Assembly: GCA_029266335.1 (NCBI GenBank)
Contig: JAQSXC010000030.1
Location: 1-44,787, forward strand
Length of the DNA: 44,787 nucleotides
Direction: 5' to 3'
DNA from: Eubacterium sp.
Lineage (GTDB): Bacteria; Bacillota; Clostridia; Acetivibrionales; DSM-1351
In this document: positions 24,161 through 41,041 of the stretch, piece by piece
Layout of the letters: every line of letters starts with the position of its first letter
Position numbering within the stretch: position 1 is the first letter of the stretch
Notes under the pieces: generated by a model
The model's input: only the letters and a program-made list of their open reading frames with translations
What the model was told of the DNA's origin: nothing
The model's database searches: none
Position numbers and translations under genes: made by a program

Positions 24161-25045
24161 TTACTTGCAGACACCGAATATTCTTTTCGCTATACTGGCT
24201 CCTGTGGGTGTTGAAGCCAGTCCTCCCTCGGCAGTTTCCTTTAAACACACAGGCATAAGATCTCCGATTGACTTCATTGCATCGATTACTTCATCTGCAG
24301 GAATTACACTTTCTATTCCTGCCAGAGCCATATCTGCAGCCACAAATGCATTTGCAACCCCTGCTGCATTGCGCTTGACACAGGGAACCTCCACAAGTCC
24401 GGCAACCGGGTCACATACAAGTCCAAGTACATTCTTCAGCGAAATTGCACAGGCATTTGCTGCCATTTGCGGTGTACCTCCTGCAATTTCCACCAGAGCA
24501 GCAGCCGCCATAGCAGATGCACTTCCACATTCAGCCTGGCAGCCACCCTCGGCACCTGAAAGACTTGCCCTGCAGGATATGACCTGTCCTATGCCGGCTG
24601 AAGTAAAAAGTGCCATAACAACCTTTTCTTTACTTAAATTTTTCTCTTCCATCACAGTAACCAGCGCAGCCGGTATTATTCCGCAGGAACCAGCTGTAGG
24701 AGCTGCAACAATTCTTCCCATGCAGGCATTTACCTCAGCAACTGCTACAGCCCTAAGTATGGCTGAATCCATCACTTTGCCTGCCAGCGTCTTACCTTCC
24801 TGTATGGCCTTTTTCAATTTGACAGCATCTCCACCCACCAGCCCGGAGTCGGATTTTAAAGAGGAATTAATTCCTTTTGTAACGGATTCGCACATTACAT
24901 CAAAAATGTATGCCATTTCATTAATCAGGTCTTTAGCTGTTTTCCCCGACCGAAGCATCTGATCCTCAAGCACAATATCCGATATGGTTTTGTCATACTG
25001 TAATGCCAGCTCCAGTAGTTCTTTCAATGACTCATATTTTAACAT
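24161..25045 (-). CDS. sdaAA: L-serine dehydratase, alpha subunit (Fe-S)
   Basis: The catalytic subunit of an oxygen-sensitive [4Fe-4S] L-serine deaminase, converting serine to pyruvate and ammonia. The family pattern is clear: APTAGSCGIIPAAL, SGAEGGCQAECGSASAMAAAALVE, GLVCDPVAGLVEVPC, with the cluster cysteines in place. The 294-residue length is normal. AAGGAAAG precedes the ATG, 19 bases after the beta subunit. It is the last gene of the long catabolic operon and ends 4 bases from the convergent regulator with no visible terminator. Serine itself is the likely substrate, but the context leaves room for a specialised one. Confidence 0.93.
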   Translation of the reverse strand: MLKYESLKELLELALQYDKTISDIVLEDQMLRSGKTAKDLINEMAYIFDVMCESVTKGINSSLKSDSGLVGGDAVKLKKAIQEGKTLAGKVMDSAILRAVAVAEVNACMGRIVAAPTAGSCGIIPAALVTVMEEKNLSKEKVVMALFTSAGIGQVISCRASLSGAEGGCQAECGSASAMAAAALVEIAGGTPQMAANACAISLKNVLGLVCDPVAGLVEVPCVKRNAAGVANAFVAADMALAGIESVIPADEVIDAMKSIGDLMPVCLKETAEGGLASTPTGASIAKRIFGVCK

Positions 25046-25064
25046 AGCTTCTTTCCTTTTACGT

Positions 25065-25730
25065 CTATAGTGGTTTTATTGATACTGCTTTAATGATGTT
25101 TGGAAGGTGGTTTACAGAAACCGTTAATTCACTGCTCAACTCCTGATCGGCTTCAATGACCATAATAGCACAGCCACCCCGATCAGATCTGTAAACTTTC
25201 ATTTGAGCTATATTAATTACATCCTGTGCAAGCAAATTTGTTACAGAAGCAATTGTACCCGGCGTATCCATGTGCTGGATTACTAAGGTGTTATACTGGC
25301 CGTTAAAGTTCACATCCAGTCCGTCAACACTTTTGATTACAATGTTTCCGCCCCCCACTGACGCTCCTGTTATAGAAAGTTTTTTCCCCGATACTCCTGT
25401 CAGTTCCAGCACAGCAGTATTGGGATGTGCATCTTTTAAGGAGACAAACTCAAAGCTACAGGAAAGCCCTGCATTGGCTGCAATTTCAAGACTGTTGCCA
25501 AGTCTGCCGTCATCAATTTCCATTCCCAGCAAACCACCCACTATAGCCCTGTCCGTTCCATGGCCTCTATATGTTCTCGCAAAAGAGCCATGCAGTTTTA
25601 TCAATGCACTGTCCAGCGTCTCTCCCAGCATTATCCTGGCTATCTTTCCAATTCTCACAGCACCGGCGGTATGCGAACTTGAGGGGCCCACCATAACCGG
25701 ACCGATAATATTAAAAACATTCACATACAT
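25065..25730 (-). CDS. sdaAB: L-serine dehydratase, beta subunit
   Basis: The beta subunit partner, with the signature IIGPVMVGPSSSHTAGAVRIG at the N terminus and an ACT domain at about 145-215 (VIQHMDTPGTIASVTNLLAQDVINIAQMKV), as in two-subunit clostridial and Bacillus enzymes. The ATG at 25730 touches the GGGGGA sequence directly. A GTG two codons later (25724) has better spacing and gives MNVFNIIGPVM, so the true start may be 25724. It lies between DUF4387 and sdaAA in the same operon. Confidence 0.92.
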   Translation of the reverse strand: MYVNVFNIIGPVMVGPSSSHTAGAVRIGKIARIMLGETLDSALIKLHGSFARTYRGHGTDRAIVGGLLGMEIDDGRLGNSLEIAANAGLSCSFEFVSLKDAHPNTAVLELTGVSGKKLSITGASVGGGNIVIKSVDGLDVNFNGQYNTLVIQHMDTPGTIASVTNLLAQDVINIAQMKVYRSDRGGCAIMVIEADQELSSELTVSVNHLPNIIKAVSIKPL

Positions 25731-25792
25731 TCCCCCAATGAATACATATCCTCTTTACTATTTCCTTAACAAGAACAAATACCTGAGATTTT

Positions 25793-26104
25793 TTATAAAT
25801 CAAATTCTATATTGAATAAGGGCGTATGCTGCTGTGCTCCATAGACGTCGGTTTCACCAAGTTCGCCTGAGCAAATCGGCCTTTCAATTGTTGCCTTTAT
25901 GGCCTTTGCCGGTTTGAATTCCACAATATTGATTACCTTTTCTACAGGTATGCCGTACAGTCCTGCTATTAATTCCTTATTTATAACCTCTGCTGCACAA
26001 GCTTTTTCAAAAACATCCCATTCCTTAAAAATAATATCAAAAGTCAATTCATAAGGACCTGAGTTTTTACTTCTTATTACATAGGCCGCATCAATCAGCT
26101 TCAT
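25793..26104 (-). CDS. DUF4387 protein
   Basis: A 103-residue protein of unknown function. It opens with AAYVIRSKNSGPYELTFDIIF and ends with the conserved-looking GAQQHTPLFNIEF. Its size and RSKNSGPY/TFDIIF pattern recall the small ferredoxin-fold domain found at the C terminus of some AtuA proteins, suggesting it is that domain as a separate subunit. TAGGAGG precedes the ATG. It follows the AtuA-like gene by 86 bases, and the two are expected to work as a complex. No catalytic role can be assigned from sequence. Confidence 0.85.
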   Translation of the reverse strand: MKLIDAAYVIRSKNSGPYELTFDIIFKEWDVFEKACAAEVINKELIAGLYGIPVEKVINIVEFKPAKAIKATIERPICSGELGETDVYGAQQHTPLFNIEFDL

Positions 26105-26190
26105 GTTAACCTCCTAATAAAGTCATGTAAAAATCATGGCTTTGAGCCGCATAGCGGCCGCAAAATATTTATGAAACTCTTTCAAGTTAT

Positions 26191-27555
26191 TTACTGCTCT
26201 ATGGACGGGATCAATTCAATAGGAAACAGTTCTGTCGGATCAGATACTTCAATCAGGTGATATATACTGAAGGCATATACTTCTCCGGCCTTAAAATCAG
26301 ACGGAGAATATGGAAATGCCAGATTTCCTGCAGTTGATATCCTGCCTTCATAGCCGTAATGGAGCATAGTCGATCTTGCAAAGCTGCATATTGTATTTGC
26401 TGTGGATTGATCTCCTGCCACTGCTTCTATGATGATTCCCAGCTCATGGGATTTAATTTCCTTCTCAGGCTCAAGATCACCCATAACTCCATTTTTGCCA
26501 TAAATTTTAAAGTCAAGGCGGTAATCCATTTTTAAATCCTTAAAGTTATCAGTTACTCTTGCTCTTACTCCTGCAATTATTTCATCAATTTTACTAATAA
26601 AAATGGGATCTCGCACACCTGCCACAGAAACGGTTCTATATCCGACTTTTTTAACACCTTCCAGCTTAATGGTATATTTTTCAGAAGGTACAAATTTACT
26701 TCCGGATACCTTAACAGCCCTATCCCCATCCTGTTCAAACTTTGTGTCCACCAGATCCAAAACACCACCTGGTCCCGGGAGTATATACGGATTTGTTTTT
26801 TCATACAAAGTATGAGCAGCCACTGAAAGGGTTGTACACTTTCTTATTGGGTTTAAGGCTTCAACCACGAAATTATCCTTGTTCAGGTATCCCATCATGC
26901 AGTCGCTGCCACTTCCCGGTGTTGCTGCAATACATGCGCACTCCAGTATCTTTCCCATATGAATGGCCAATCCTCTGTCATAGCCCTTTTTTACGGCAAG
27001 TGCTGCAAATACTGCAGGATCATAGGCCCTTCCGGCCAGGATAACCTGGGCATCCATATCAAGTGCTTCGATAAATGGCTCTACTCCCATCTGACCCACT
27101 ATTCTTTCAGTTTTGTGTAGTTCCTCTTCTGTCAGTTCAGGTGCCGGATGAAGCGGTGACACCTTACCTTTTTTCAGCATGTCAAGCACATGCTCCTTAT
27201 CTATTTCAGCATTTATAACCGCTATTTTAAAGTTCAGACCCTTCTCAAAAGCAATCTCTCTTACTATGTTGATATTCCAATTGAGATGAGGATCACCACC
27301 ACAGCCGCCGGCTGTACCAATGATAACAGGTATACCTTCCTTTATGGCTGCAGTGATCATAATATCAAGATCCCTTTTAACGGCATTCCTGTCCGTAAAT
27401 GAAACTCCGGCACCCAGATAATAGGGTCCGGGGTCGGTAGAACCCGCATCTACCGCAATTACATCAGGATGCCTCTTCATTCCCTCTTCAAAGGATTCTA
27501 CCGGAAAGCCATAACCCAGTATAGCTGTCGGAGATAATACGCGCAATCCTTCCAT
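26191..27555 (-). CDS. AtuA-like (DUF1446) protein
   Basis: A 454-residue cytoplasmic protein of the DUF1446/AtuA family, named for acyclic terpene utilisation but without an established reaction that I know of. Visible features are VIAVDAGSTDPGPYYLGAG (about 30-48), a Gly-rich IIGTAGGCGGDPHLNWN (about 78-94) and AGRAYDPAVFAALAVKKG. An in-frame ATG at 27630 would add 25 residues unlike the family. The ATG at 27555 has AAAGGGGG upstream and gives the expected MEGLRVLSPTAILGYGFP start. It sits between mal and DUF4387 in the methylaspartate operon, so a step on mesaconate or citramalate is possible (inference). Confidence 0.85.
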   Translation of the reverse strand: MEGLRVLSPTAILGYGFPVESFEEGMKRHPDVIAVDAGSTDPGPYYLGAGVSFTDRNAVKRDLDIMITAAIKEGIPVIIGTAGGCGGDPHLNWNINIVREIAFEKGLNFKIAVINAEIDKEHVLDMLKKGKVSPLHPAPELTEEELHKTERIVGQMGVEPFIEALDMDAQVILAGRAYDPAVFAALAVKKGYDRGLAIHMGKILECACIAATPGSGSDCMMGYLNKDNFVVEALNPIRKCTTLSVAAHTLYEKTNPYILPGPGGVLDLVDTKFEQDGDRAVKVSGSKFVPSEKYTIKLEGVKKVGYRTVSVAGVRDPIFISKIDEIIAGVRARVTDNFKDLKMDYRLDFKIYGKNGVMGDLEPEKEIKSHELGIIIEAVAGDQSTANTICSFARSTMLHYGYEGRISTAGNLAFPYSPSDFKAGEVYAFSIYHLIEVSDPTELFPIELIPSIEQ

Positions 27556-27645
27556 TGTAAATATGCCCCCTTTATTTTTATTGCACCTCTCAGCTGTTTG
27601 CCCGGCAAACAGCCAGATGTGCATCAGCATTTAAGACTATAGATT

Positions 27646-28893
27646 TCAGGCCATTCTGTTGCGAAGGGCCAGGATTCTTTGCATCTCATTGTATACAATC
27701 ATGAACCCTTCATCCACACCCATACCCGGTTTGGCCAGAATTTGATCCGGTTTTGTTGCCATAGCCAGGTGAACGCATACCTGAGCCGAGCGGTCTGTTT
27801 CATTGCAGGTACCGCCCTGATAAGCACCAATACCCTTTTCCTTACAATATAGCACAGCTTCAACTATGTTATTGATTCCTCCGAGGTCGGGTGTTTTAAT
27901 CTGGATCATATGACCTGCCCTGTTATCTGCGAAATATTTGATATCTTCCCAGGTATTGCACCATTCATCGGCAACGATCTGCAGACTCATTTTTTCTGCA
28001 TCTATCATTGCAGTTATTTCTTTAAGTGCCAGCATCTGCTTTTCACGGTCATCCATATCCATTGGCCCTTCAATTCTGAGTTTCAGCGGATATGCTGCTT
28101 TTTCAAGCTTCTTAAGATATTCCAGTACCTTTTTATTGTCATTGTCAAATGCAATTCCAATTGTTCCATATACATCAATATGGAGCACAGGCTCATAGCT
28201 GTCGTCAGGTTTTAATTCCTCTACCCTGTTCTTTAGCCATTCAACATATTTCAGCAGCAATTCCCCCTGTTTCCCCAGCTTTGACTCAACATTGTTTATC
28301 AAACCGTGTGGAAGGACACATGCACCCTTTAGAATCATTTTGTCAACATTTTCATAACGGTTATCTCCGGACTGTGTAAATATGGGGATCTCTCTGTCAG
28401 ATACTTCGGTATTGTATTCGTCGGCTATAACTTCTGCCATGAGAAGTTTTCTGCTCTTTGCCACAGCATCCAGAATCGCCTGGGTAATTCCGTAGCGTAA
28501 CGCCGTATGTATTTTCTTACCGGTGTTTCCATCGGTGAGATTGTCGATTTCTTCTGCCATTTCTCTGAAGGTGGTAATTTCTTTTCCTTTGAGCAAAGGT
28601 GCTATCTGCCGGTTGATAACAGGTATGAAATCTTCCGCAAGAAACAATGGATCCCTACCTCCTGCACCTGAATATTGTACGGCAGCACATTCACCATATG
28701 CAATCTGCCCATCTTCCAGCAGAAGCATTACAGATATTGATTCTCCTGCCTGCCTTACGGCCGTAAAACCCTTTGTCACCGGAGTTCCTTTGTAGGCGGC
28801 ACCATCCGGAACAGCACTGCTCTTAATGGCTTTCTGATCATCAAAGAAAAACCCTGTTTTCCCTCCGGAACATATCACATCCTTAATTCTCAT
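27646..28893 (-). CDS. mal: Methylaspartate ammonia-lyase
   Basis: Eliminates ammonia from (2S,3S)-3-methylaspartate to give mesaconate, the second step of glutamate fermentation by the methylaspartate route. An enolase-superfamily protein of 415 residues, very like the Clostridium tetanomorphum enzyme as I remember it. His196 (VLPHGLINN) and Lys333 (MIQIKTPDLGG) correspond to His194 and Lys331 there. The Mg ligands lie in HIDVYG, RIEGPMD and VADEWCN. The ATG at 28902 overlaps the AAGGGATG ribosome site, so the ATG at 28893 is preferred and gives the family N terminus MRIKDV. It follows glmE by 83 bases. Confidence 0.96.
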   Translation of the reverse strand: MRIKDVICSGGKTGFFFDDQKAIKSSAVPDGAAYKGTPVTKGFTAVRQAGESISVMLLLEDGQIAYGECAAVQYSGAGGRDPLFLAEDFIPVINRQIAPLLKGKEITTFREMAEEIDNLTDGNTGKKIHTALRYGITQAILDAVAKSRKLLMAEVIADEYNTEVSDREIPIFTQSGDNRYENVDKMILKGACVLPHGLINNVESKLGKQGELLLKYVEWLKNRVEELKPDDSYEPVLHIDVYGTIGIAFDNDNKKVLEYLKKLEKAAYPLKLRIEGPMDMDDREKQMLALKEITAMIDAEKMSLQIVADEWCNTWEDIKYFADNRAGHMIQIKTPDLGGINNIVEAVLYCKEKGIGAYQGGTCNETDRSAQVCVHLAMATKPDQILAKPGMGVDEGFMIVYNEMQRILALRNRMA

Positions 28894-28976
28894 AACACTC
28901 ATCCCTTACTTTTATATTTTTAGGTTATTCAGGTTAAGAACTTATCTGAATTATATTGATACTGGTCTCTTTAAAA

Positions 28977-30428
28977 CTATTTTGGTCTTCCAACCAGACG
29001 TCCTTTACTGATGGCATAAATATCATCTATTACCATCTGGAAACTTGCACTTCTTTTTTCAAACACCGATCTTTCTTCCATCCTTTTTAAATGGAAACTT
29101 TTTATATCATCGTTAAAAGGCACATTCCCAAAATCCAGGAATCTTATTGCTCCATTATTATCTCTTGCAGGAAGAGCCCGTCCCAGATTATATTTGCTTG
29201 GAGCAAAAGGAACATCTATTATGCCGGCTTCAAAAGCTCTTATTGTACCTTTTGCAATATCTCCCATTCCCGACTCAAATATTTTATCAACTATACATCT
29301 TGTCTCTGCCAGAATCATATTTATTTCTACTTCCAGCTCATGAGTCAATGGCATCTTTTGATCGCGAAGCATGGTCACAAGTTGTTTTGTAGCTTTCAAG
29401 CCCGATGCATTGGCTTCCTTTGTCGGTATTCCGAAGGCTTCATGTACTGACTTGACTATGACTTTTGTAGCACCCGATAAGGCAGCTGCTGCAGATCCCC
29501 AGGATATAACTCCGAAAGCCTTGGCTTCATCCTGCGGGAAACCTCCCATCCACTGGTGTAAAACAGTAGTTACGGTAACATCCTTATAGCCGTATTTTTC
29601 AAGATATTCTTCCGTTAACATTCCAAGGGTCCGTATTGCGGCCACATCCTGAATCAGATTTCCGCATTGTCCATAGCCTACCGTAATGTTTTTTACACCC
29701 TGTTCTGCTGCCAGTATACTTTCAACTATAGCAACCGAATGAGATATGCAGGGAGGAACAAGAGTTCCGGTAAGTGGTCCAAAGGGCTCTCTGTTGACAG
29801 ATACGCCTGCTTCTTCATATTTTCCTATAAGTCTGTCAACATATTGCCAATCATAAATTGTCTTTTCAAGAGAGTTATTTTTTGCATAAGGAATATTGTA
29901 TGATACACCACCGCCCTCATAAGAGGTAAAGCCTCCTGCAACACTTATTTCTGTCAGGAGCCTGGCATCGGGAGTACCATGCCTGACCTGTACAGGTATA
30001 TTCAAAGACTCATTAACTCTACGGCAGGCGTTCACACCATGATTTACAGCAGGAAAGCCGTTTAGCATTGATCTGCTTTCTTTGACACTTTCCTTAATCC
30101 CGTTTTCGGCTTCCTCATAACGATTATGTCTGGTATAACTGTCTATTGTTGTAGGAAGCAGATCAGCTCCTCCAAAATCCTGCAGATAGCGGAGCAGTTC
30201 AATGTGATCCTCAATCAGGGCTACACCGGCTCTTGGCTGTATCAAGGTTTCTCCTGACTGCTTTGCGTCGGCAAGCTTTTTTGAAAATACCTTTTCTGCA
30301 GGAATTGCCTTTTGGTACTCAACTACTTCATCGAAGTCAACATCTTTTCCGGTAGGCCATTGTTCAAGAACGTTACTGCGGATTTCTGAAAATAAACTGT
30401 CATCCAACTTCTTATTCCTTAGCTCCAT
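28977..30428 (-). CDS. glmE: Glutamate mutase, epsilon (E) subunit
   Basis: The large subunit of adenosylcobalamin-dependent glutamate mutase, which rearranges L-glutamate to 3-methylaspartate together with GlmS. The 483-residue length equals the C. cochlearium subunit as I recall it. Substrate-region motifs include [34 protein letters not shown] (about 145-180) and [11 protein letters not shown]. The start overlaps the end of glmL by 10 bases, and TTGGAGATG within glmL serves as ribosome site, so the two are translationally coupled. Confidence 0.97.
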
Positions 30429-31813
30429 GAAATCATCTCCAACTCTTTTTTCATTATTCTTACGGCAATTCCGGGGTATTTTACGCTCAGCAAACCCATT
30501 GCTGCCAATATGTACTTTTTATCTAAATATGCCTCTGCCTTTTTTGGCTTTAATATGCCGGGATGTGCTTCATCAAACATGGCTTCCTTAAGCAGCATTG
30601 CAGGGTTGGAACAATTGATGACCGGACCGCCTGTTCCTATAATACGGCTTATCCTTCCAAGATCCTTACCTGATTGCACATACACCGACCCATAGGGTGT
30701 AAATTCCATTTCAATACTTCCTGCATGACGTTCAGTAGCCATCCTTACAGCCATGGCTGCAAGACCATGATCCAAAAGACTGATTTTTTCATTATCCACA
30801 GGAAGAATTCCTGGATTCTCGTTAACCAGACCTGTTGAATTCACAACCTCTTCACGGCTCAGACCTGACTTTTCGGCAATATTTCCAATTCCCGCAGTAT
30901 CCAGAAGAGTTACCGCATTGTATCTTACTCCCAGATCCCCTTCAACTGTTCTTTTTTCTATTGGTTCGGGAAGACCTTTTAATATGACGCCAGCCATATT
31001 TGGGCTTCCGTCATTAATAGAATACACGTCGGTGGTTGCTCCGCCTACATCGACCACCAGTAAATCTCCAATTCCCTTTTCATCTTCAAAACCTGAGGAA
31101 AGGTAGTGCGCTGCATTTAGTACCGCAGACGGGGTAGGCATTAATATACCTTCGATCAGATTCTGAACTTTTGTCAGTCCTTTTGCTCTGATTATCCTTT
31201 CGAGAAAAATTTCCCTAATCAGCAATCTGGCAGGTTCAATGTTTAATTTATTGAATCTGGGCATTACATTTTCACATAACCTGGCATCCTTCTTATTTTT
31301 TGCAAGAATTTCCACTATCTCATCAGAAGCTGATTTGTTTCCTGCAACCACAACCGGGAAATCAAGTTCAATTTCAGAAATCACACGGGCATTGTGAAGT
31401 ATAACCTTACTGTTTCCGCCATCTGTACCACCTGACAATAGGACGATGTCAGGTTTAAGCTCATATATTTCTTTAGCTTCCCTGGCACTCAATTCATAGC
31501 AATAGGTTTTCAAGACCTTTGCCCCGGCGCTTAAAGCGGCCATTTTAGCTGCTTCTGCCGTAAGCTCGGGTACCAGACCTACCGCAATCATTTTTAGTCC
31601 ACCGGCAGCACTGCTGCATGCAAACTTACCGGAATATTCTCTTATCCCGGTTTTATTGCCCAATTCCTCTATAGCCTTTTCGAGACCCTCATTTACATCA
31701 GTCTCTATTGTGGTAAACGATTTAGCGGTGCCCAATATGCATTCGCCGTTTAAATCAACTGCTGTAACCTTGGTAAATGTACTTCCGATATCTATCAACA
31801 ATACGGCATCCAA
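30419..31813 (-). CDS. glmL: Glutamate mutase reactivase/chaperone GlmL (MutL)
   Basis: An ASKHA-fold ATPase encoded between the mutase subunits and thought to protect or reactivate glutamate mutase by exchanging damaged cobalamin. Phosphate-binding motifs are [15 protein letters not shown] at the N terminus and [16 protein letters not shown] (about 250). An in-frame TTG at 31822 overlaps the GGGAG ribosome site, and the TTG at 31813 has the right spacing and leaves one base after the glmS stop. It is preferred, giving 464 residues, close to the known 462. TTG initiation is unusual and may limit GlmL relative to the catalytic subunits. Confidence 0.93.
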
Positions 31814-31814
31814 G

Positions 31815-32228
31815 CTACTCAACTCCCAAATCCTTTTTAAGGTCTGCTATAGTTACCTCAGGCATTGTTCCGGGTGGATAAACCCTGTTGTATCCCATTG
31901 AGAGGAATCTGCCCTCTACTTCTTCAAAAGGGGTCTTTCCTACTACCAGATTGCCTCCCACATACAGCGGTATGTTTTCAAGTCCGGCTTCATTACATTT
32001 TTCTCTGAGGCCTCTGCAATCTATCTCGCCATGTCCATATAGTGATGAAACAAGTATCACATCAGCAGCCGTTTCAACTGCTGCCTGTATGTACTCTTCC
32101 TGGGAAACCATTACTCCAAGGTTTACTACATTGAAGCCTGCCTGTCTGAAAGCATGCTCTAGAATTTTGTTACCTACAGAATGAACATCTGCGCCAATAA
32201 CTCCCATTACCAATGTTTTATTATTCAT
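31815..32228 (-). CDS. glmS: Glutamate mutase, sigma (S) subunit, B12-binding
   Basis: The small cobalamin-binding subunit of glutamate mutase. The base-off/His-on motif DxHxxG is visible as [11 protein letters not shown] with His16, the same residue number as in the C. tetanomorphum protein, followed by [19 protein letters not shown] and a YVGGNLVVG loop. An upstream ATG (32240) has a poor site. The ATG at 32228 follows GGAGAAAAA and gives 137 residues, the known length. The symbol is for glutamate mutase and should not be confused with glucosamine-6-phosphate synthase. Confidence 0.96.
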
Positions 32229-32240
32229 TTTTTTCTCCAT

Positions 32241-32450: not shown

Positions 32451-33374
32451 TTATAGACTTAATTTATTGAGATCATCGATGTCTATGGCTCTCTCAGAAC
32501 CAACAAGTCCCACAAGAGCATAAACCCCGGATATAAGATCGTACTTGAATTCCTTGAACAGTTGAAAATTCTCTATCTCACCGGTATTTCTGACATGTAT
32601 TCTGGGGCCGGTGCAATGAAAATTATCCGAATCTCCTATATGTATGTGCTTTTCATCCATATAGCCAACCGCCAGACCTTTTTTTATGTATTCCTTTACC
32701 CTGTTTTCAACTACTTCAATATCGATATTGGGTTTTTCGGTAAATTCCAGCACGAACCCATGCCTGACATCACTGTGAACCTGATGATGACTGAATCCAA
32801 ATTCTTCGGAAAGTACCTTACAGGTCAGATCTTCTGCAGTATGTGCCATTTTTCTGTATTTAATGGATTTGAAAACAATATCCGAAATATCTTTCGGCAG
32901 CGGGCCAAAAACATTGGGACGCGTCACAATAACTTCTTCTCCAATTCCAATCAGCACCTCTGCATTCATACCCAGCACAGGATACAGCAGGTCGAAATGT
33001 TCAATTATTACTCTTTTGTCCTGTTGAACAGCACGTTTTACAGCATCTGCCAAATCATTTATCTGAGAAAAAGCCAATTCAAATCTTGCATCAATATGAT
33101 AGGTATGACTGCTGAAAAAAGCTCTGTCAGTGTCTCTGAAAATAGGCAGCGGGCGAATATTTAATCCTTCATCGTCATTTGTAAGTTCAAGGCCCGGAAA
33201 CATCCCGCGAATAAGAAGAGATTTACCGGCTCCGGCATCTCCAATAAGCCCTATCAATCTGTCGGTTGCACTGATATGCCTTTGGGAAATCAGGTGACCC
33301 AGATTCAATATTCTGCTCTTGCCTCTCGGTGCGAAATAAACTGCATATAAAAGTTGTTCATGTGCCAGGGACAT
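32451..33374 (-). CDS. P-loop NTPase fused to an AlaRS second-additional-like (SAD) domain
   Basis: A 307-residue protein of unknown function. Residues 35-130 look like a small P-loop kinase/NTPase with Walker A GDAGAGKS (45-52) and a Walker-B-like RVIIEHFD (121-128). Residues about 170-300 resemble the alanyl-tRNA synthetase SAD/AlaX editing fold: His178-T-A-E-Asp182 in place of HTxxH, and Cys274 to His280 followed by VRNTGEIENFQLF, matching the AlaRS zinc loop. I recall such proteins annotated as 'alanine-tRNA synthetase second additional domain' in other clostridia. Its ribosome site is weak. It lies between hypD and glmS, suggesting a role for the mutase or dehydratase system (inference). 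Confidence 0.75.
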   Translation of the reverse strand: MSLAHEQLLYAVYFAPRGKSRILNLGHLISQRHISATDRLIGLIGDAGAGKSLLIRGMFPGLELTNDDEGLNIRPLPIFRDTDRAFFSSHTYHIDARFELAFSQINDLADAVKRAVQQDKRVIIEHFDLLYPVLGMNAEVLIGIGEEVIVTRPNVFGPLPKDISDIVFKSIKYRKMAHTAEDLTCKVLSEEFGFSHHQVHSDVRHGFVLEFTEKPNIDIEVVENRVKEYIKKGLAVGYMDEKHIHIGDSDNFHCTGPRIHVRNTGEIENFQLFKEFKYDLISGVYALVGLVGSERAIDIDDLNKLSL

Positions 33375-33521: not shown

Positions 33522-35882
33522 TTAAAAGGATTCATGTTCTGTTCTCTCAATAATCTCATTTTGCAATGCCGTATTCAAATTGCAGAAATAATCGCTGTAA
33601 CCGGCAACCCTTACAATAAGATCCCTGTATTTTTCAGGATTTTTCTGTGCCTCCAGTAAGGTTTCCTTTTCTATGACATTAAACTGAATATGATGACCAT
33701 CAAGTTTAAAATAAGATCTGATCAAACCTGCCAGAGCTCTGATGCCTTCTTCATTTTGCAGAAGCTGCGGGGTAAATTTCATATTCAGCAGCGTTCCGCC
33801 CGTCCTCAGGTGATCCATTTTTGCCGCAGACTTAAGTACTGCTGTTGGCCCCTCATGTTCTGACCCCTGCACAGGTGATATGCCTTCCGAAAGCGGCAGA
33901 CCTGCATTCCTGCCATCTGCTGAAGCCCCAATGACTGAACCGAAGTATACATGGCAGGTGGTAGGAAGCATGTCAATCCTGTAACAACCGCCCTTCATGT
34001 TCTTTCTTTCGTTTACTTCATTGTAGTATGCATCAAAAACTTCCTTCATAATACTATCTGCAAAATCGTCGTCATTCCCGTATCTCGGAGTTTTGTTCAA
34101 AAGCTGCTGCTGAACATCCTTGCTGCCTTCAAAATCATTATTCAGAGCAAATAACAGCTTTTCCATGGTAAGATTTTTCTTCTCAAACACATGGTACTTT
34201 ATAGCAGAAAGACTATCGGTAATACTTCCTATACCTACACCCTGTACGTAGGTAGTGTTGTATCTTGCACCTCCTGCGTTGTAATCCCTGCCGTCTTTAA
34301 TACAGTCACTGATGATAATCGACAAGAATGGTGAAGGCATATACAATGCGTATATTTTTTCAATTATATTGTTTCCCTTGATTTTTATATCTAAAAAATG
34401 ATGCATCTGTTTTTTAAATGCTGTAAACAGTTCATCATAAGACTTGAAGTCGACAGCATTGCCGGTTTCAAGACCTATTTTTTTATTTGATCCCGGATCG
34501 GTTCCGTTATGCAGCGTAATTTCCAGTATTTTCGGAATGTTAAAATAACCTGTCAGGATATAGCTTTCCTTCCCGAAGGCACCTGCCTCAACACACCCGC
34601 TGGTACCGCCGCATCTTGCATCTTCAATACTTTTACCCTGTCTCAGCAGCTCTTCCACAACAGCATCGGCATTAAAGACAGAAGGCTGTCCCCAACCTTT
34701 TTTGATAATCTCACATGCTTGTTTCAAAAACCTGTCAGGAGTCTTTTTGCTTAACTGGATATTTGAACTTGGCTGTAAAAGCCGCATGTCATCAATAACT
34801 TCCAGCAGCAGGTAAGACACATCATTTATTCCGTCAGAGCCATCCGCTTTCAGACCGCCCACATTAATATTTGCAAAATCAGTATAGGTTCCGCTTTCCT
34901 TAAGCGTTACGCCAACCTTTGGAGGTGCGGGCTGATTATTGAATTTTACCCAGAAGCACTGCAGTAGTTCCTTGGCATCTTCGCAGGTAAGTGTACCGGC
35001 ATCAATTCCGCTTTTGTAGAAAGGATACAGGTGCTGGTCCAAACGACCCGGATTAAAGGAGTCCCAGGTATTCAATTCAGTTATGACTCCAAGATGGATG
35101 AACCAGTATGCCTGCAAAGCTTCCCAGAAGTTTTGCGGAGCATGGGCAGGCACTCTTCCCGTCACCTCAGCAATTTTCAGCAATTCTTTCTTCCTCTGGG
35201 GATCCACTTCCTGAGCAGCCATTGAACTTGCTTTCTCAGAGTAGCGTTGGGCCAGCCTTATGATTGCATCTGCACAAATAAGCATAGCTTCCAGTTCCTG
35301 CTGTTTTTCATATGCATATTCATCCTTGAAGAAGTCTAAACTTTTCAGGCTCTGCTCAATATCTGCCTTAAAATCAAGAAATCCTTTCCGGTATATTTTT
35401 TCATCTGCCACAGTATGTCCCGGAGCACGCTGCTCCATGAATTCTGTGAATATTCCGGCTTCATAAGTATCTTTCCACTCTTGTGACATGCTGTTGAAGA
35501 TAATTTCCTTGATGGATTTACCCTTCCAGAAAGGAATAATTTCCTGACGATAGAAATTTTTCAACTCATCGCTCACTTTAAAGGATATTTTTTCACGGTT
35601 GTTTATAATATCAAGATCCTCTTCACTGTGGCAACACAATTCCGGATAGGTTGGTGTTGCAAGTGGAGCCGGACCCCTTTCTCCGACTATGAGCTCACCC
35701 TCCTGAATAGCTATGGACTTGTTTTCCATGATATGCTTGAAAACAAGAGCACGTAATACAGGCTGAGACACTTTTCCAGAATGTTTTGAATAAACTTCGG
35801 TAACAAGTCTGGCTCTTTCTTCGGTAATGAAAGGTTTTCCTTCAACACTTTCCTTTCTCAATTTCTGGATCCTTTTATTCAA
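33522..35882 (-). CDS. hypD: trans-4-Hydroxy-L-proline dehydratase (glycyl radical enzyme)
   Basis: Dehydrates trans-4-hydroxy-L-proline to (S)-1-pyrroline-5-carboxylate by glycyl-radical chemistry. The C-terminal radical loop is RVAGYSDYF (Gly761), and the thiyl site is GGTSGCVEAGAFGKES (Cys430, Glu432). The residues I recall for C. difficile HypD (His160, Asp278, Ser334, Phe340, Cys434, Glu436, Tyr450, Gly765) all have identical counterparts here (His156, Asp274, Ser330, Phe336, Cys430, Glu432, Tyr446, Gly761) at a constant offset. This separates it from pyruvate formate-lyase, glycerol and choline enzymes. The in-frame TTG at 35897 is part of the TTGGAGG ribosome site; the TTG at 35882 is the likely start (786 residues). 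HypE lies 4 bases upstream. Confidence 0.95.
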   Translation of the reverse strand: MNKRIQKLRKESVEGKPFITEERARLVTEVYSKHSGKVSQPVLRALVFKHIMENKSIAIQEGELIVGERGPAPLATPTYPELCCHSEEDLDIINNREKISFKVSDELKNFYRQEIIPFWKGKSIKEIIFNSMSQEWKDTYEAGIFTEFMEQRAPGHTVADEKIYRKGFLDFKADIEQSLKSLDFFKDEYAYEKQQELEAMLICADAIIRLAQRYSEKASSMAAQEVDPQRKKELLKIAEVTGRVPAHAPQNFWEALQAYWFIHLGVITELNTWDSFNPGRLDQHLYPFYKSGIDAGTLTCEDAKELLQCFWVKFNNQPAPPKVGVTLKESGTYTDFANINVGGLKADGSDGINDVSYLLLEVIDDMRLLQPSSNIQLSKKTPDRFLKQACEIIKKGWGQPSVFNADAVVEELLRQGKSIEDARCGGTSGCVEAGAFGKESYILTGYFNIPKILEITLHNGTDPGSNKKIGLETGNAVDFKSYDELFTAFKKQMHHFLDIKIKGNNIIEKIYALYMPSPFLSIIISDCIKDGRDYNAGGARYNTTYVQGVGIGSITDSLSAIKYHVFEKKNLTMEKLLFALNNDFEGSKDVQQQLLNKTPRYGNDDDFADSIMKEVFDAYYNEVNERKNMKGGCYRIDMLPTTCHVYFGSVIGASADGRNAGLPLSEGISPVQGSEHEGPTAVLKSAAKMDHLRTGGTLLNMKFTPQLLQNEEGIRALAGLIRSYFKLDGHHIQFNVIEKETLLEAQKNPEKYRDLIVRVAGYSDYFCNLNTALQNEIIERTEHESF

Positions 35883-35895
35883 ATCTTCAACCTCC
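35882..35895 (-). promoter_or_regulatory. hypD ribosome binding site and TTG start
   Basis: GGAGG (complement of 35891-35895) sits in the last codons of hypE, 8 bases before TTG at 35882. This spacing argues against the upstream TTG at 35897, which would place the start on the ribosome site itself. Confidence 0.7.
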
Positions 35896-36789
35896 AATTT
35901 TTACACAAAATCCATTATTCTTAAAAACATCAGCTATTTTTTGCATCTCGTGTACCTCAGGTGTAATAAGTCCCTTAAGCCTGTATTGAATCCCAAGTTT
36001 ATCATACTTATATATCCCTATATCATGATAAGGAAGTATGCCGATATTTCTGATGGAAGTGGATTTTAAAAATACGATGCTTCTGTCAATATTCTCTTCA
36101 TCATCATTTACACCGGGTATAACAGGTATCCTTACGCAGATATTATTGTGTATCTCAGAAAGCTTCTTCAGATTATGCAATATAATTTTGTTGGACACAC
36201 CGGTATACTTAATGTGCTTTCCCTCATCCATTAATTTAAGATCATATAAAAACAGATCAGTATAACCGGCAATGTTCTCCATCCTGTCCCAGGCCGTATA
36301 ACCCGAGGTTTCAATGGCAGTATGTATGCCTTTCCTTTTACAGCTTTTAAGCATTTCATACAGGAATTCATACTGCAGGAACGGCTCTCCTCCGGTAAAG
36401 GTTACACCTCCGCCAGACTCATCATAAAATATGGTGTCTTTTTCTATGATATCCATAAGCGCAGAAACAGTCATTTTTCTCCCAATGGACTCCAGAGCAT
36501 TATCCGGACATACATCAATACAATTGTAACAATGGGTACACTTATTCCGATCCCATCTCAGATCCTTGTTCTTGAAGTAAACAGCTTCATCTTTGCATAT
36601 TTCAATGCATCTGCCGCAGTGGTGGCATTTTTCCTCATGATAAACAATGACTCCTGAAGGCTCTTGGCCTTCAGGATTATGACACCACCAGCAGTTTAAC
36701 GGACATCCTTTCAAAAAAACAGTGGTACGGATTCCGGGACCGTCATGAATGGAATACTTTTGAATTTTAAAAACAATACCTGTCATCAT
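35887..36789 (-). CDS. hypE: Hydroxyproline dehydratase activating enzyme (radical SAM)
   Basis: Generates the glycyl radical on HypD using S-adenosylmethionine. The radical-SAM motif CxxxCxxC is Cys29-Cys33-Cys36 (KGCPLNCWWCHNPEG), followed by a ferredoxin-like insert with two [4Fe-4S] motifs (Cys55/58/61/65 and Cys84/87/90/94), as in most glycyl-radical activases. The 300-residue length is normal. Two ATGs in tandem (36789, 36786) start 1 base past the pruA stop without a recognisable ribosome site, so translation is probably coupled to pruA. Confidence 0.94.
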   Translation of the reverse strand: MMTGIVFKIQKYSIHDGPGIRTTVFLKGCPLNCWWCHNPEGQEPSGVIVYHEEKCHHCGRCIEICKDEAVYFKNKDLRWDRNKCTHCYNCIDVCPDNALESIGRKMTVSALMDIIEKDTIFYDESGGGVTFTGGEPFLQYEFLYEMLKSCKRKGIHTAIETSGYTAWDRMENIAGYTDLFLYDLKLMDEGKHIKYTGVSNKIILHNLKKLSEIHNNICVRIPVIPGVNDDEENIDRSIVFLKSTSIRNIGILPYHDIGIYKYDKLGIQYRLKGLITPEVHEMQKIADVFKNNGFCVKIGG

Positions 36790-36790
36790 T

Positions 36791-38338
36791 TTATAGTTTT
36801 TCAGTTACTGATTTGGCCTGCATGAACAATGTAAGATAATCAGTTCCTCCGCCTTTGGAGTCGGTACCCGACATATTGAAGCCTCCGAAAGGCTGAACAC
36901 CCACAAGTGCTCCGGTACACTTTCTGTTTAGATAAAGATTTCCTACATGGAATTCACGTCTGGCTTTTTCAAGCTTGCTTCTGTTTCTTGAAAATACCGC
37001 ACCGGTCAATCCATACTCTGTTCCGTTTGCTATATCTAATGCATCCTCATAATCTTTAGCTTTAATAACAGCCAACACTGGTCCGAAAATCTCTTCCTGT
37101 GATATTCTTGCCTCAGGCTTTATATCAATAATAATTGTAGGCTCTATGTAGTAGCCTTTTTCCGGAAGGGCATTTCCTCCAAGTAACAGCTTTCCTTCTT
37201 TCTTGCCTATTTCGATATATGATAAAATATTCTTGTAAGCCTTGTCATCTATTACAGGTCCCATGTTTATTCCCGGTGTTCTTGCCGGACCAACAGTTAA
37301 TTTTGCTGCTTTTTCCTTTACCAGTTCAACTATCTTGTCATACACATCTGCAACTATAATTGCTCGTGAGCATGCTGAACACTTTTGTCCCTGGAAACCG
37401 AATGCTGCAGCGACTATACCTGCTGCCGCCTCATCAAGATCTGCTTCAGAGTCAACAACAATGGCATCCTTACCACCCATTTCGAGGGCAACTCTCTTTA
37501 TCCATTTCTGTCCTGGTGTGTGCTCGGCAGCCATACTGTTTATTCTTAAACCTATTTCCTTTGATCCTGTAAAATTAATAAATCTTACTTTTGGATGTTT
37601 TACAAGATAGTCTCCGATTAATCCGCCTGATCCCGGAAGATAATTAAGTACTCCGGCTGGAAGTCCTGCTTCTTCCCAAACTTCCATATACTTTGCGGCA
37701 ATAATTGCAGTAGTGCTGGCAGGCTTCATTATAACCGCATTTCCTGCAACAATGGCAGCAGCTGTCATACCTGTCAAGATAGCTAGAGGAAAATTCCATG
37801 GGGAAATAACAACACCTACACCCAAAGGTATATATGTGCATTCATTGATTTCACCAACTGTAGAATAGACATCCATTCCCTTATCCAATGAAAGCATTTG
37901 TCTGCCGTAATATTCCAAAAAGTCAATTGCTTCTGCAGTATCAGCATCAGCTTCGGCGAAATTCTTACCTGATTCTTCTACAAGCCAGGCTGAAAATTCA
38001 AGTTTACGTCTTCTGATAATTGCTGCAGCTTTAAACAAATAACCGGCACGTTCTTTCGCACTGACATTTTTCCAGCTTTCAAAAGCTTTTAATGCAGACT
38101 GAACTGCTTTTTCAGCCTGATCAACAGATGCACTTGCTGTTGTTCCGATGACTTCTTCGTAATTTGATGGATTTAAAGACTTAATTACTGCTTCAGAGTT
38201 AACTTTTTCTCCACCTATAACAAGCGGATAATGTGTTCCCTTGCGGCTGTCAACCAGCTTTAACGCCTCCTGCATTGCAGCTGCATTCTCTTGCTTTGAA
38301 AAATCAATATACGTTTCGTTTTTGTACTCTGGTAACAT
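36791..38338 (-). CDS. pruA: L-glutamate gamma-semialdehyde (P5C) dehydrogenase
   Basis: Oxidises glutamate semialdehyde, the open form of P5C, to L-glutamate with NAD+. An aldehyde dehydrogenase of 515 residues with ISPWNFPLAILTGMTAAAIVAGNAVIMKPA, FTGSKEIGLRI, catalytic Glu286 (ALEMGGKD) and Cys320 (QGQKCSACSR), typical of the RocA/PruA group. AGAGGTGA precedes the ATG. It is the first gene of the operon, so the first enzyme encoded is the one that turns the HypD product into glutamate, the substrate of the mutase encoded downstream. Monofunctional: no proline dehydrogenase domain. Confidence 0.95.
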   Translation of the reverse strand: MLPEYKNETYIDFSKQENAAAMQEALKLVDSRKGTHYPLVIGGEKVNSEAVIKSLNPSNYEEVIGTTASASVDQAEKAVQSALKAFESWKNVSAKERAGYLFKAAAIIRRRKLEFSAWLVEESGKNFAEADADTAEAIDFLEYYGRQMLSLDKGMDVYSTVGEINECTYIPLGVGVVISPWNFPLAILTGMTAAAIVAGNAVIMKPASTTAIIAAKYMEVWEEAGLPAGVLNYLPGSGGLIGDYLVKHPKVRFINFTGSKEIGLRINSMAAEHTPGQKWIKRVALEMGGKDAIVVDSEADLDEAAAGIVAAAFGFQGQKCSACSRAIIVADVYDKIVELVKEKAAKLTVGPARTPGINMGPVIDDKAYKNILSYIEIGKKEGKLLLGGNALPEKGYYIEPTIIIDIKPEARISQEEIFGPVLAVIKAKDYEDALDIANGTEYGLTGAVFSRNRSKLEKARREFHVGNLYLNRKCTGALVGVQPFGGFNMSGTDSKGGGTDYLTLFMQAKSVTEKL

Positions 38339-38480: not shown

Positions 38481-38530
38481 AAATTTACTATTACTAAAAT
38501 TGATTTTAGCATACCAAGATTATAAGTCAA
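38481..38530 (-). promoter_or_regulatory. pruA operon promoter with putative XRE operator
   Basis: On the minus strand TTGACT (38525-38530), 16 bases, TGC-TAAAAT (-10 at 38503-38508). A perfect palindrome CTAAAAT-CA-ATTTTAG (38494-38509) overlaps the -10, and TTTTAGTAATAGTAAATTT lies directly downstream (38481-38499). The layout matches the proC promoter. It sits about 160 bases before pruA, inside the 294-base divergent spacer; a clear promoter for the plus-strand gene was not identified. Confidence 0.68.
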
Positions 38531-38632
38531 TACAATACAAAAATGTTCCACTAATTCTACGTTTTTTACACTGTTGTTTTTTATGAAACTTGATAATATA
38601 GAATCATACACTACCAAGGAGGTATTTATATA

Positions 38633-39562
38633 ATGGTTGAAACAGTTCTTGAGTATCTTCGTAAGAAAGGATATCCTGCCCGTATTGTATCGGTGGGGCA
38701 TTTAAAAGAAGTTCAGGAAGAAATTGAAAAACTCAATGAAGCCAGGTATTTGGATCAAAGCATGTATAAACTGTTTAAAGATTTCCATAATTTCAGTATT
38801 CCTGCTTCTCCGGATCAGGCAAAATCAATTTTTATTGTTGCTTCCCCCAGTCCCGTGGTAAAAATCAACTTCAACCATGAGGGAATGAGTTTTCCGGTGC
38901 TAATACCTCCCACATATACAGAGTACTATAAAAAGCCGGAAGAAATTAAGCAGTACTTAAATGAAATACTTGAAAGTTACGGATATAACGCAGTCAGAGT
39001 TACAAGACTGCCCGAAAAACTTATTGCTGTACACAGCGGTCTGGCAGAATATGGTGCGAATAACATCACATATATTCCTGAATTCGGGAGCTTTTTTCTA
39101 CTGTCTGCCTTCTATTCCGATTTGCCATGTACCGATACTGATGAAACCTGGAATAAGCTCCGGGTTATGGATAGGTGTAAAAATTGCCGCGTCTGTATCA
39201 GTAAATGTCCGACAGCTGCTATTACTGAAGAAAGGTTTCTTATTAAAGCAGAACGCTGCCTGACTTATTACAATGAATTTAAAGGTACACCGGAATTTCC
39301 CGGATGGATCAGACCTGAATCTCATAATTGCCTGGTAGGCTGCCTCAGATGCCAGCTGCCCTGTCCGCAAAACAGAGGACAGCTGGACAAGGTTGAAGAA
39401 TTGGCAGAAATAGATGAAACTGAAACTTCACTAATTCTTGAAAAACTGGAATTTGAAGAGCTCCCTCCATCCCTTGCAGCAAAACTGGAGGATCTCAATA
39501 TATCAATGTATTATCATCATCTTGCAACCAACCTGAAGGCTCTAATAACGCAAAACAGCTGA
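38633..39562 (+). CDS. QueG-like protein with two [4Fe-4S] clusters
   Basis: A 309-residue protein related to epoxyqueuosine reductase QueG and reductive-dehalogenase-type corrinoid proteins. C-terminal cluster motifs are CKNCRVCISKCPTAAI (about 182-197) with Cys in AERCLTYY, and NCLVGCLRCQLPCPQNRGQ (about 229-247). The N-terminal part corresponds to the QueG cobalamin-binding region, with ENSGLAEYG replaced by VHSGLAEYGANNITYIPEFGSF. It lacks the C-terminal HEAT-like extension of many QueG proteins. AAGGAGG precedes the ATG. It is divergent from pruA across the shared control region. A redox role with a corrinoid, for instance supporting B12-dependent glutamate mutase, is inference. Confidence 0.8.
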   Translation: MVETVLEYLRKKGYPARIVSVGHLKEVQEEIEKLNEARYLDQSMYKLFKDFHNFSIPASPDQAKSIFIVASPSPVVKINFNHEGMSFPVLIPPTYTEYYKKPEEIKQYLNEILESYGYNAVRVTRLPEKLIAVHSGLAEYGANNITYIPEFGSFFLLSAFYSDLPCTDTDETWNKLRVMDRCKNCRVCISKCPTAAITEERFLIKAERCLTYYNEFKGTPEFPGWIRPESHNCLVGCLRCQLPCPQNRGQLDKVEELAEIDETETSLILEKLEFEELPPSLAAKLEDLNISMYYHHLATNLKALITQNS

Positions 39563-39583
39563 GTTAAATGCTCAGCTGTTTTT
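39552..39583. terminator. Bidirectional terminator overlapping the QueG-like stop codon
   Basis: A 12-bp stem AAAACAGCTGAG (39552-39563) with CTCAGCTGTTTT (39571-39582), 7-base loop, T-run at the end on both strands. The left arm includes the last codons and stop of the plus-strand gene. It serves the convergent fumB as well. Confidence 0.82.
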
Positions 39584-39605
39584 GCATTCCATATAAACAC
39601 AAGTT

Positions 39606-40160
39606 TTAAATAGCACTGCAGTATTTGTTCCTGCCACTCTCATACAGGTTTTTCCCAAAACGGTCTATAACAACAACGGCCGGGAAATCTATTACAGTAA
39701 GTTTTCTCAATGCTTCGGGGCCTAACTCAGGGAAGGCTATAATTTCTTCCCTGACAATAGTTTTTGAGATAAGCGCCGCAGCTCCGCCAATGGCTCCGAA
39801 ATATACGGCCCCATGCTTCATCATTGACTCAACTACCTCCTTACTACGCAAGCCTTTTCCGATCATCCCAGCAAGACCTAACTCCAAAAGTTTCGGTGCA
39901 TAGGCATCCATGCGGCTGCTGGTAGTAGGCCCGGCCGAACCCATCACCTGTCCCGGACGGGCAGGACAGGGTCCAACATAGTATATGATCTGATTCTTCA
40001 CATCAAAAGGCAAATCAATACCTTCCTGGAGCATGTTTACCATAAGCTTGTGCGCCGCATCCCTTGCGGTATATATTGTACCGCTTATTTTCACCATATC
40101 TCCCGCTTTTAAATTGTCAACTGTTTCCTTCGTCAAAGGAGCTTCAATATTATAAGTCAT
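39606..40160 (-). CDS. fumB: Class I fumarase/mesaconase, beta subunit
   Basis: The C-terminal-domain subunit of a heterodimeric, oxygen-sensitive class I hydro-lyase. Family motifs include VKISGTIYTARDAAHKLM, YYVGPCPARPGQVMGSAGPTTSSRMD and FGAIGGAAALISK. The 184-residue length is normal. GGAGG precedes the ATG, 38 bases after the alpha subunit. In the methylaspartate pathway this enzyme class hydrates mesaconate to citramalate. Class I members often accept both fumarate and mesaconate, so the sequence alone cannot decide, but the context favours mesaconase. Confidence 0.9.
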   Translation of the reverse strand: MTYNIEAPLTKETVDNLKAGDMVKISGTIYTARDAAHKLMVNMLQEGIDLPFDVKNQIIYYVGPCPARPGQVMGSAGPTTSSRMDAYAPKLLELGLAGMIGKGLRSKEVVESMMKHGAVYFGAIGGAAALISKTIVREEIIAFPELGPEALRKLTVIDFPAVVVIDRFGKNLYESGRNKYCSAI

Positions 40161-40198
40161 AAAAAATCCTCCGGATACTTATTCTATTTTTTACTATG

Positions 40199-41041
40199 TC
40201 ATATAGTGACTTCCGCATGCCTTGTTGCATGACAATTCAGATTAACAGCCACAGGCAGTCCAGCAATATGTGTAGGAAAAACTTCTATGTTTACTGCAAG
40301 TGAAGTTGTGCTCCCTCCAAGCCCCGCAGGACCTATTCCCAGTTTGTTTATTTTTATCAGCAGCTCTTCCTCAAGCTTTTTCACATGTTCCAGTCCGCTC
40401 GGGCAATCAACAGGCCTCATCAGGGCTTTTTTTGCAAGAAGGGATGCCTTCTCCATAGTTCCTCCGATCCCTACTCCTACCACAATAGGTGGACAGGGAT
40501 TTGGCCCTGCGCTGCTTACAACATCCAGGATAAACTGTTTTACTCCTTCAATGCCGTCGGAGGGCTTGAGCATTTTCAACCCACTCATATTCTCGCTTCC
40601 GAAACCTTTAGGAGCAACCATGAGTTTTAATGTATCACCTTCAATAATGTTATAATGAATAATTGCAGGCGTGTTGTCTCCGGTATTAACTCTCTCAATG
40701 GGGTCACCCACCACAGATTTTCTCAGATAACCATTTTTATATCCCCGTCTTACACCTTCATTTATGGCATCCGTTAAGCTTCCTCCTCTTATGTATACTT
40801 CCTGACCTATATCCACGAAGACAACCGCCATACCCGTATCCTGGCAGATGGCCATCTTTTCGTTCTTTGCAATTTGAGCATTTTCCACCAGTTGTTTCAA
40901 TATGCTTTTACCCAAGTCTGATTTTTCGGTCTCAACAGCAGCTTTTATAGCAGCTTCCATGTCAGGGTTAAGATAGTAATTGGCATCGATGCACAGCTTT
41001 TCTATAATAGCTGAAATTTCTTCTATTTCTATAGTTTTCAT
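40199..41041 (-). CDS. fumA: Class I fumarase/mesaconase, alpha subunit
   Basis: The Fe-S-bearing N-terminal subunit, 280 residues, with cluster cysteines in [36 protein letters not shown] and [11 protein letters not shown] and the conserved [17 protein letters not shown]. Two ATGs lie in tandem (41044, 41041). GGAGG at 41047-41051 has proper spacing only to the second, so 41041 is preferred. It is the first gene of a two-gene unit with its own promoter carrying the same motif as the pruA and proC promoters, which ties it to the hydroxyproline/glutamate pathway. Confidence 0.92.

Follow-up and report, generated by a model that had tools for sequence, protein, structure and literature searches.

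The route by which Clostridioides difficile and gut Clostridia use hydroxyproline, with the dehydratase HypD, its activase HypE and pyrroline-5-carboxylate reductase (P5CR), was reportedly described by Levin in 2017. The excerpts of PMC11574389 and PMC7077986 considered here give reduction to proline as the fate of the HypD product, pyrroline-5-carboxylate (P5C), in Clostridia, and in the first of them the main role described for HypD is to provide proline for Stickland reduction. The excerpt of PMC9044972 treats hypD and proC, and that of PMC7077986 makes the general statement that other pathways can draw on P5C. The methylaspartate pathway of glutamate fermentation is covered by PMC8473912, the excerpted part of which does not mention hydroxyproline. 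In the open-access literature, covered partly as titles and openings of abstracts, we found nothing that links HypD with glutamate mutase or methylaspartate and no prior description of a join of these two pathways.

Both gene sets stand side by side in the DNA analysed here, a 44,787-base contig (C79) of a Eubacterium genome (5.5 Mb, 356 contigs, 92.6% complete, 5.06% contaminated); this whole stretch is called the window below. Judging from the sequence, it is likely that the two known modules have been joined into one fermentation of hydroxyproline to acetate, with a neighbouring proC gene for P5C reductase as a possible electron sink. Such a pathway would be a new combination of known enzymes; it is probably functional, and we infer that its two halves are coupled.

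Set against the HypD/HypE/P5CR route as it appears in the excerpts of PMC7077986 and PMC9044972, the locus has the same dehydratase and activase and an extra proC nearby. The active-site and substrate-contact residues named in the former are kept in HypD at 14 of 14 positions with a constant offset of +1, confirming the constant offset reported by an earlier sequence-only reading of the window. The locus differs in that pruA leads the operon, that no proline reductase was found in the genome, and that the operon runs on into genes of glutamate fermentation. With the methylaspartate pathway of C. tetanomorphum and relatives, as excerpted from PMC8473912 and PMC4682846, it shares GlmS, GlmL, GlmE, Mal and a two-subunit class I fumarase, and the same products are expected. 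Here, however, these genes lie beside hydroxyproline genes, the predicted citramalate lyase is of the CmlAB rather than the CitDEF kind, and fumAB lies outside the operon.

Gene content and predicted pathway

The minus strand of the window carries a run of 14.2 kb (38338-24161) with the gene order pruA-hypE-hypD-(P-loop/SAD)-glmS-glmL-glmE-mal-(AtuA)-(DUF4387)-sdaAB-sdaAA (Table 1). Profile and open reading frame (ORF) evidence recovered every gene of the sequence-only reading on this strand and in the order it had given. Overlaps of 8-11 nt occur at hypE/hypD, glmS/glmL and glmL/glmE; pruA lies directly 5' of hypE with a gap of 1 nt, and the largest gaps are 147 nt 3' of hypD and 210 nt 5' of glmS. 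Common strand and spacing suggest a single operon from pruA to sdaAA. On the pruA side it is followed by a divergent QueG-like gene and then fumB-fumA, and on the sdaAA side by a convergent HTH/cupin regulator, proC and an M24 peptidase, the last two of which the sequence-only reading had overlooked.

Gene identities were scored against curated NCBIfam cut-offs, given here after each bit score. HypD reached 1420.7 (1100) with NF043068 and aligned without gaps to the solved C. difficile enzyme 6vxc (1153 bits). HypE scored 426.4 (425) with NF043069 and has the CxxxCxxC motif at residue 29. PruA scored 826 (648) with NF002852 and 768.5 (659.65) with TIGR01237, matches PDB 3qan and other P5C dehydrogenases, and carries the GQKCS motif at position 317. 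Among the glutamate mutase proteins, GlmS scored 219.6 (110) with NF002612 and has DVHSVG at 18, GlmL scored 636 (475) with NF040745, and GlmE scored 788.5 (390.1) with TIGR01503 and matches 6h9e over its whole length (1-483, 747 bits). Mal reached 592.4 (286.15) with TIGR01502 and 598 bits with 1kcz. Nine of nine residues that we take to form the GlmE active site are kept, and of ten residue entries that we assume for Mal nine agree; the remaining one is an alternative guess at position 361. SdaAB and SdaAA scored 215.3 (161.2) with TIGR00719 and 364 (243.2) with TIGR00718.

The gene between the two modules, present by tblastn in 50 of 85 glmE loci described below, had been read as encoding a P-loop/SAD protein. 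The window protein alone falls below both Pfam cut-offs (tRNA_SAD, E 0.014; TsaE, E 0.03), no other Pfam family reaches its own cut-off either, and a profile search of the PDB gave nothing better than E 0.076. Across 26 aligned members of the family, however, counted at a loose threshold of E 10, TsaE was matched in 24 (best 3.6e-5) and tRNA_SAD in 18 (best 5.1e-5), so that the domain reading holds weakly for the family. The protein may, as an idea only, be a quality-control factor for a pathway amino acid mischarged on tRNA.

The sequence-only reading had stopped at citramalate and missed the lyase. The AtuA-family protein matches chain A of PDB 9erq, named citramalate lyase CmlA (540 bits, E 3.1e-161), and the DUF4387 protein matches chain B, named CmlB (98.8 bits, E 1.5e-27), both over nearly their full length in 9erq as well as 9evf. 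CmlAB would thus supply the final step, and the operon is predicted to reach pyruvate and acetate. Since homology of the CmlA-like protein begins at residue 29, its translation may in fact begin about 25 codons downstream of the annotated start. A search that detects the Escherichia coli control found no CitF in the genome (CitD and CitE were not searched for), so that, as judged by CitF, a lyase of the CitDEF type was not found.

Mesaconate hydration would be the sole step outside the operon, with FumAB or a second copy on contig C8 as candidates. FumA scored 424.4 (276) with NF004885 and FumB 287.3 (238) with NF005310. The sequence-only reading had counted fumAB among the genes of the set; the pair is indeed nearby, but outside the operon and separated from it by the QueG-like gene on the opposite strand. 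According to the excerpted part of PMC4682846, class I fumarases are promiscuous and hydrate mesaconate.

Every enzyme from hydroxyproline to citramalate is therefore encoded, by family scores, in the operon or just beside it, as had been claimed, and so is a citramalate lyase. If the encoded proteins have the activities of their families and carbon flows through them in this order, HypE would activate HypD, which would dehydrate trans-4-hydroxy-L-proline (Hyp) to P5C. In the next step PruA would form glutamate and NADH by oxidation of P5C or of its open semialdehyde form. The B12-dependent mutase GlmSE, kept alive by GlmL, would then convert glutamate to 3-methylaspartate, and Mal would split this into mesaconate and ammonia. 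A class I fumarase, FumAB or the C8 copy, would hydrate mesaconate to (S)-citramalate, which CmlAB would cleave to acetate and pyruvate. Pyruvate yields acetyl-CoA, ATP and reduced ferredoxin in the established pathway. By our own arithmetic the balance would be Hyp + 3 H2O -> 2 acetate + CO2 + NH3 + 4[H]. Part of the P5C could be reduced to proline by the extra ProC, and two further P5C would absorb the 4[H].

Table 1. Coordinates of the predicted genes in and around the hydroxyproline-glutamate locus of the window
Gene	Predicted product or role	Position	Strand	Basis
pruA	P5C (glutamate-gamma-semialdehyde) dehydrogenase, P5C -> glutamate	36791..38338	-	NF002852, TIGR01237, PDB 3qan, GQKCS motif
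hypE	radical-SAM activase of HypD	35887..36789	-	NF043069, CxxxCxxC at residue 29
hypD	hydroxyproline dehydratase	33522..35897	-	NF043068, 6vxc, 14/14 residues
P-loop/SAD	307-aa TsaE-like P-loop / tRNA_SAD-like protein, partner of glm operons	32451..33374	-	weak family-wide domain matches
glmS	B12-binding subunit of glutamate mutase	31815..32240	-	NF002612, DVHSVG at 18
glmL	glutamate mutase accessory/reactivation protein	30419..31822	-	NF040745
glmE	glutamate mutase catalytic subunit	28977..30428	-	TIGR01503, 6h9e
mal	methylaspartate ammonia-lyase	27646..28902	-	TIGR01502, 1kcz
cmlA-like	citramalate lyase subunit A (AtuA family)	26191..27630	-	9erq_A
cmlB-like	citramalate lyase subunit B (DUF4387)	25793..26104	-	9erq_B
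sdaAB	L-serine dehydratase beta subunit	25065..25730	-	TIGR00719
sdaAA	L-serine dehydratase alpha subunit	24161..25045	-	TIGR00718
regulator	HTH/cupin regulator	23560..24156	+	HTH_3 + Cupin_2
proC	second P5C reductase of genome, P5C -> proline	22441..23250	-	TIGR00112
M24 peptidase	Xaa-Pro-type aminopeptidase	20599..22386	-	Pfam creatinase N, M24, M24_C domains
QueG-like	gene between pruA and fumAB	38633..39562	opposite to operon	
fumB-like	class I fumarase beta subunit, candidate mesaconase	39606..40160	-	NF005310
fumA-like	class I fumarase alpha subunit, candidate mesaconase	40199..41044	-	NF004885

Comparison with other genomes and alternative explanations

The glmE set comprised 85 loci, 79 regions from 78 genomes of a 398-genome phylum sample and six from relatives, 100 of which were sampled; hits of 392 bits or less were left out, and neighbours were sought by tblastn with the window proteins. 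The HypD set of 123 loci consisted of 80 named loci (the best of at least 577 confirmed), three loci of relatives, and loci from 40 further phylum genomes, drawn from 66 in which HypD exceeded the cut-off. Sequence of 5 kb on both sides was available for 66 of the 85 glmE loci, and for 37 of the 80 named and 24 of the 40 phylum hypD loci. Of the 85 glmE loci, 77 have glmS, 71 glmL, 70 mal, 51 cmlA, 49 cmlB, 23 fumA and 22 fumB.

Comparison with these sets weighs against a tightly coupled pathway, as do several features of the locus itself. True hypD, true pruA, sda and proC were each found in none of the 85 glmE loci (a 36% match to hypD in L193 is another glycyl radical enzyme, and a pruA-like match in L125 reaches 33%), and no glmE, glmS, mal or cmlA lay within 8 kb of hypD in any of the 123 HypD loci. 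The check offered with the sequence-only reading, to look for hypD beside glmE in other genomes, thus came out negative in both sets, in which many loci are cut by contig ends. Since the adjacency was seen nowhere else, the join must be rare, and conservation of adjacency lends it no support. The companion check for hypD beside pruA was positive in G034, a member of another family of the order, and in L011, L041 and L108, the last three with a pruA of at least 40% identity near hypD, though never together with glm genes. Tight co-inheritance across the phylum also has to be rejected: among 397 phylum genomes 16 have both HypD and glmE, 62 glmE only, 50 HypD only and 269 neither, so that joint occurrence does not exceed chance (Fisher p 0.31). 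Apart from the window, the closest pair on one contig is at least 39.6 kb apart, and in 10 of the 16 genomes with both the two lie on different contigs. In favour of the join, HypD exceeds the cut-off in two of the 58 genomes of the order examined, both among the five with glmE, a support weakened by a chance figure of only 0.07 once our own genome is left out.

Two strong hairpins lie between the hyp and glm modules, in the gaps that flank the P-loop/SAD gene. A very long one stands directly 3' of hypD at the joint (33375-33521, minus strand; z -3.8, no clear T-tract by eye), and a long one 5' of glmS (32241-32360, minus strand; z -3.3), where the stretch occurs once in the genome. A riboswitch 5' of glmS was considered and rejected; no Rfam family reached its gathering score in the window, and matches at relaxed threshold in 23000-41500 were at chance level. 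A quick check by eye of ten glmS upstream stretches (that of L150 is mostly N) showed no structure resembling the hairpin. Promoter-like signals (63 against 51.3, standard deviation 7.9, in shuffles) and terminator-like signals (25 against 14.9, standard deviation 3.5) were not used as evidence. The HypE score exceeds its cut-off by just 1.4 bits, we recognised no transporter dedicated to hydroxyproline in the window, and the function of CmlAB rests on the naming of 9erq by its depositors, for which we found no describing paper. FumA falls with housekeeping fumarases, apart from the fumA genes of glm operons (97/98). It groups, on a fairly long branch (0.4), with four FumA proteins of its own genome, two congeners and one member of the order (97/98), a group that does not include the second FumA of G006. 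Our genome has two fumA copies over the cut-off, as has G006, and the other five of six congeners have one. Copy number and tree together point to an extra, diverged fumarase, the sequence being no proof of a dedicated mesaconase; a dedicated mesaconase lineage for FumAB is unsupported by the tree.

On these grounds two independent catabolic modules may merely adjoin: pruA-hypED would make glutamate, or proline with ProC, for growth, glmSLE-mal-cmlAB would ferment glutamate whatever its source, histidine or peptides for instance, and the common strand would be an accident of insertion. We regard this as the less probable explanation, though a substantial one. It overlaps with the coupled pathway, as glutamate from PruA would still be usable, and the two are not exclusive. 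The uniqueness of the adjacency, the chance-level co-occurrence and the hairpins at the joint all favour it, and so does G034, which holds the same two modules on separate contigs. One of its contigs reads proC-regulator-pruA-hypE-hypD-PepQ-like, followed by a gene on the opposite strand, with the regulator 74% identical to ours and divergent from pruA; another contig carries glmSLE-mal-cmlAB-SAD. Against it stand the uniform strand and the short gaps or overlaps inside each module, the presence of both modules at one site where G001 and G009 lack them, and the sister relationship of the window proteins to those of G034 for HypD (support 0.999; 71 rows, the 70 best-scoring and the window) and GlmE (0.869; 76 rows). 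In the CmlA tree the nearest rows are L112 and L113 (weak support, 0.62), with L111 next. G079, a genome of the same class, likewise carries HypD and, on a different contig, cmlAB (55% and 48%) together with a distant glmE (40%).

A more conventional explanation, which we consider unlikely, is that HypD and ProC turn hydroxyproline into proline, which would be built into protein or excreted, and that PruA only degrades P5C derived from proline. The adjoining ProC does offer a rival fate for P5C, and with proC next door HypD would not be wired to glutamate alone. Window proC scores 205 (196.75) with TIGR00112, lies about 10 kb from hypD and 0.9 kb past the operon end, and has no counterpart there in G001 or G009. 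Two proC genes of our genome exceed the cut-off, the stronger on contig C226, against one in each of six congeners examined. The literature pairs HypD with P5CR in the excerpts of PMC7077986 and PMC9044972; in our sets proC lies within 8 kb of hypD in 6 of 80 named and 1 of 40 phylum loci. However, pruA stands 1 nt ahead of hypE, the order pruA-hypE-hypD recurs in G034, pruA adjoins hypD in L011 and hypE in L041, and the glm-cml half would be left without a need. Nor would proline bring a Stickland gain. A search of six genomes for PrdA of D-proline reductase found none in our genome or G034, a weak match (58 bits) in G079, and hits that exceed the cut-off in G492, G493 and G494, the genomes with loci L011, L026 and L031. 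As our genome is 92.6% complete the absence is not certain, but the known route from HypD to Stickland reduction looks unavailable. The failure to find PrdA and CitF fits glutamate as the fate of P5C. The claim that HypD is wired to glutamate rather than proline therefore stands in part: pruA leads the operon and PrdA was not found, yet a P5C reductase adjoins.

An assembly chimera or contamination, by which the hyp-glm stretch would be foreign to the genome, is very improbable. The 356 contigs and 5.06% contamination leave room for it, and none of ten congeners has hypD over the cut-off or glmE. Nevertheless both flanks of the contig have colinear counterparts in G001 and G009 at about 72-89% nucleotide identity; these two congeners keep the regulator (90%) and the M24 peptidase (83%) at the site, and break from the window at several places (proC, the operon, fumBA, DUF5695 and 42230-43942) rather than at one. 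In addition the contig encodes a PNPase that shares 96% and 95% identity with its counterparts in two congeners, so the contig belongs to the genome; bin contamination was judged unlikely on this and on synteny. When the window is compared with G001 and G009, proC and fumBA each form an extra piece of their own. At the operon site, the regulator and the QueG-like gene of G009 flank a 317-aa gene that looks by eye to be of EamA type, and G001 has a gap of similar size. In a third congener, G002, most of the middle of the window is unmatched in the 60 kb compared. G+C content showed no clear difference that would mark the island as foreign: island genes (38.2-45.5%) and other genes (35.7-43.7%) overlap, so that composition says little about origin.

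The window also encodes a GH127 beta-L-arabinofuranosidase (7942-10254, minus strand) and an adjoining DUF5695 protein (10312-13023, minus strand), the latter absent at that place in G001 and G009. An extensin island was considered, but GH127 and its ABC transporter also occur in G001 and G009, two genomes without a hypD above the cut-off, and GH127 is accordingly not tied to the operon.

HypD in different amino acid fermentations

The joining of HypD to a B12-dependent amino acid mutase pathway has a likeness in L040, from a Syntrophomonadaceae metagenome-assembled genome, whose partners are ornithine transaminase, OraE, Ord, OrtAB and proC instead of glutamate mutase. In that locus (7329-22121) hypE-hypD stands with Ord, OrtA, OrtB, OraE, a GlmL-like Or-4 protein (597.1 against a cut-off of 600), ornithine transaminase and proC. 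L055 resembles it in layout, as judged by tblastn and ORF lengths, and a nearly full ornithine degradation set lies beside HypD in this type of locus together with a serine dehydratase-like fusion. Serine dehydratase-like genes adjoin hypE-hypD in 4 of the 80 named loci (L040, L049, L055 and L076), in none of the 40 phylum loci and in none of the 85 glmE loci. In L011 the genes after hypD-pruA encode a PepQ-like peptidase (under the cut-off of that family), PrdR and proline racemase. A relative of the HTH/cupin regulator stands no more than 8 kb from hypD in 8 of the 80 named loci and in 3 of the 40 phylum loci. The arrangements in L040, L055 and L011 suggest that HypD is a module joined to different amino acid fermentations, of which the window would be the glutamate version.

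With two proC genes and no PrdA found, proline could be formed from hydroxyproline and would probably not be reduced further by PrdA. Hydroxyproline might then serve as fuel and electron acceptor at once: one third would be oxidised to acetate, CO2 and ammonia by way of P5C, glutamate and methylaspartate, and the extra ProC would reduce the other two thirds to proline, according to 3 Hyp + H2O -> 2 Pro + 2 acetate + CO2 + NH3, with ATP from acetyl-CoA. We put this dismutation forward tentatively and with some doubt. If true, it would be a Stickland-like fermentation of one amino acid alone, for which no proline reductase would be required.

The occurrence of cmlA and cmlB in more than half of the glmE loci suggests that a CmlAB-type lyase may be the common end enzyme, perhaps of many glutamate-fermenting operons in the phylum. 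As for hydroxyproline, one gene set that pairs a glycyl radical enzyme with a B12 radical enzyme would take its whole carbon to acetate and CO2, and anaerobes without proline reductase would gain a route for growth on hydroxyproline derived from collagen or extensin.

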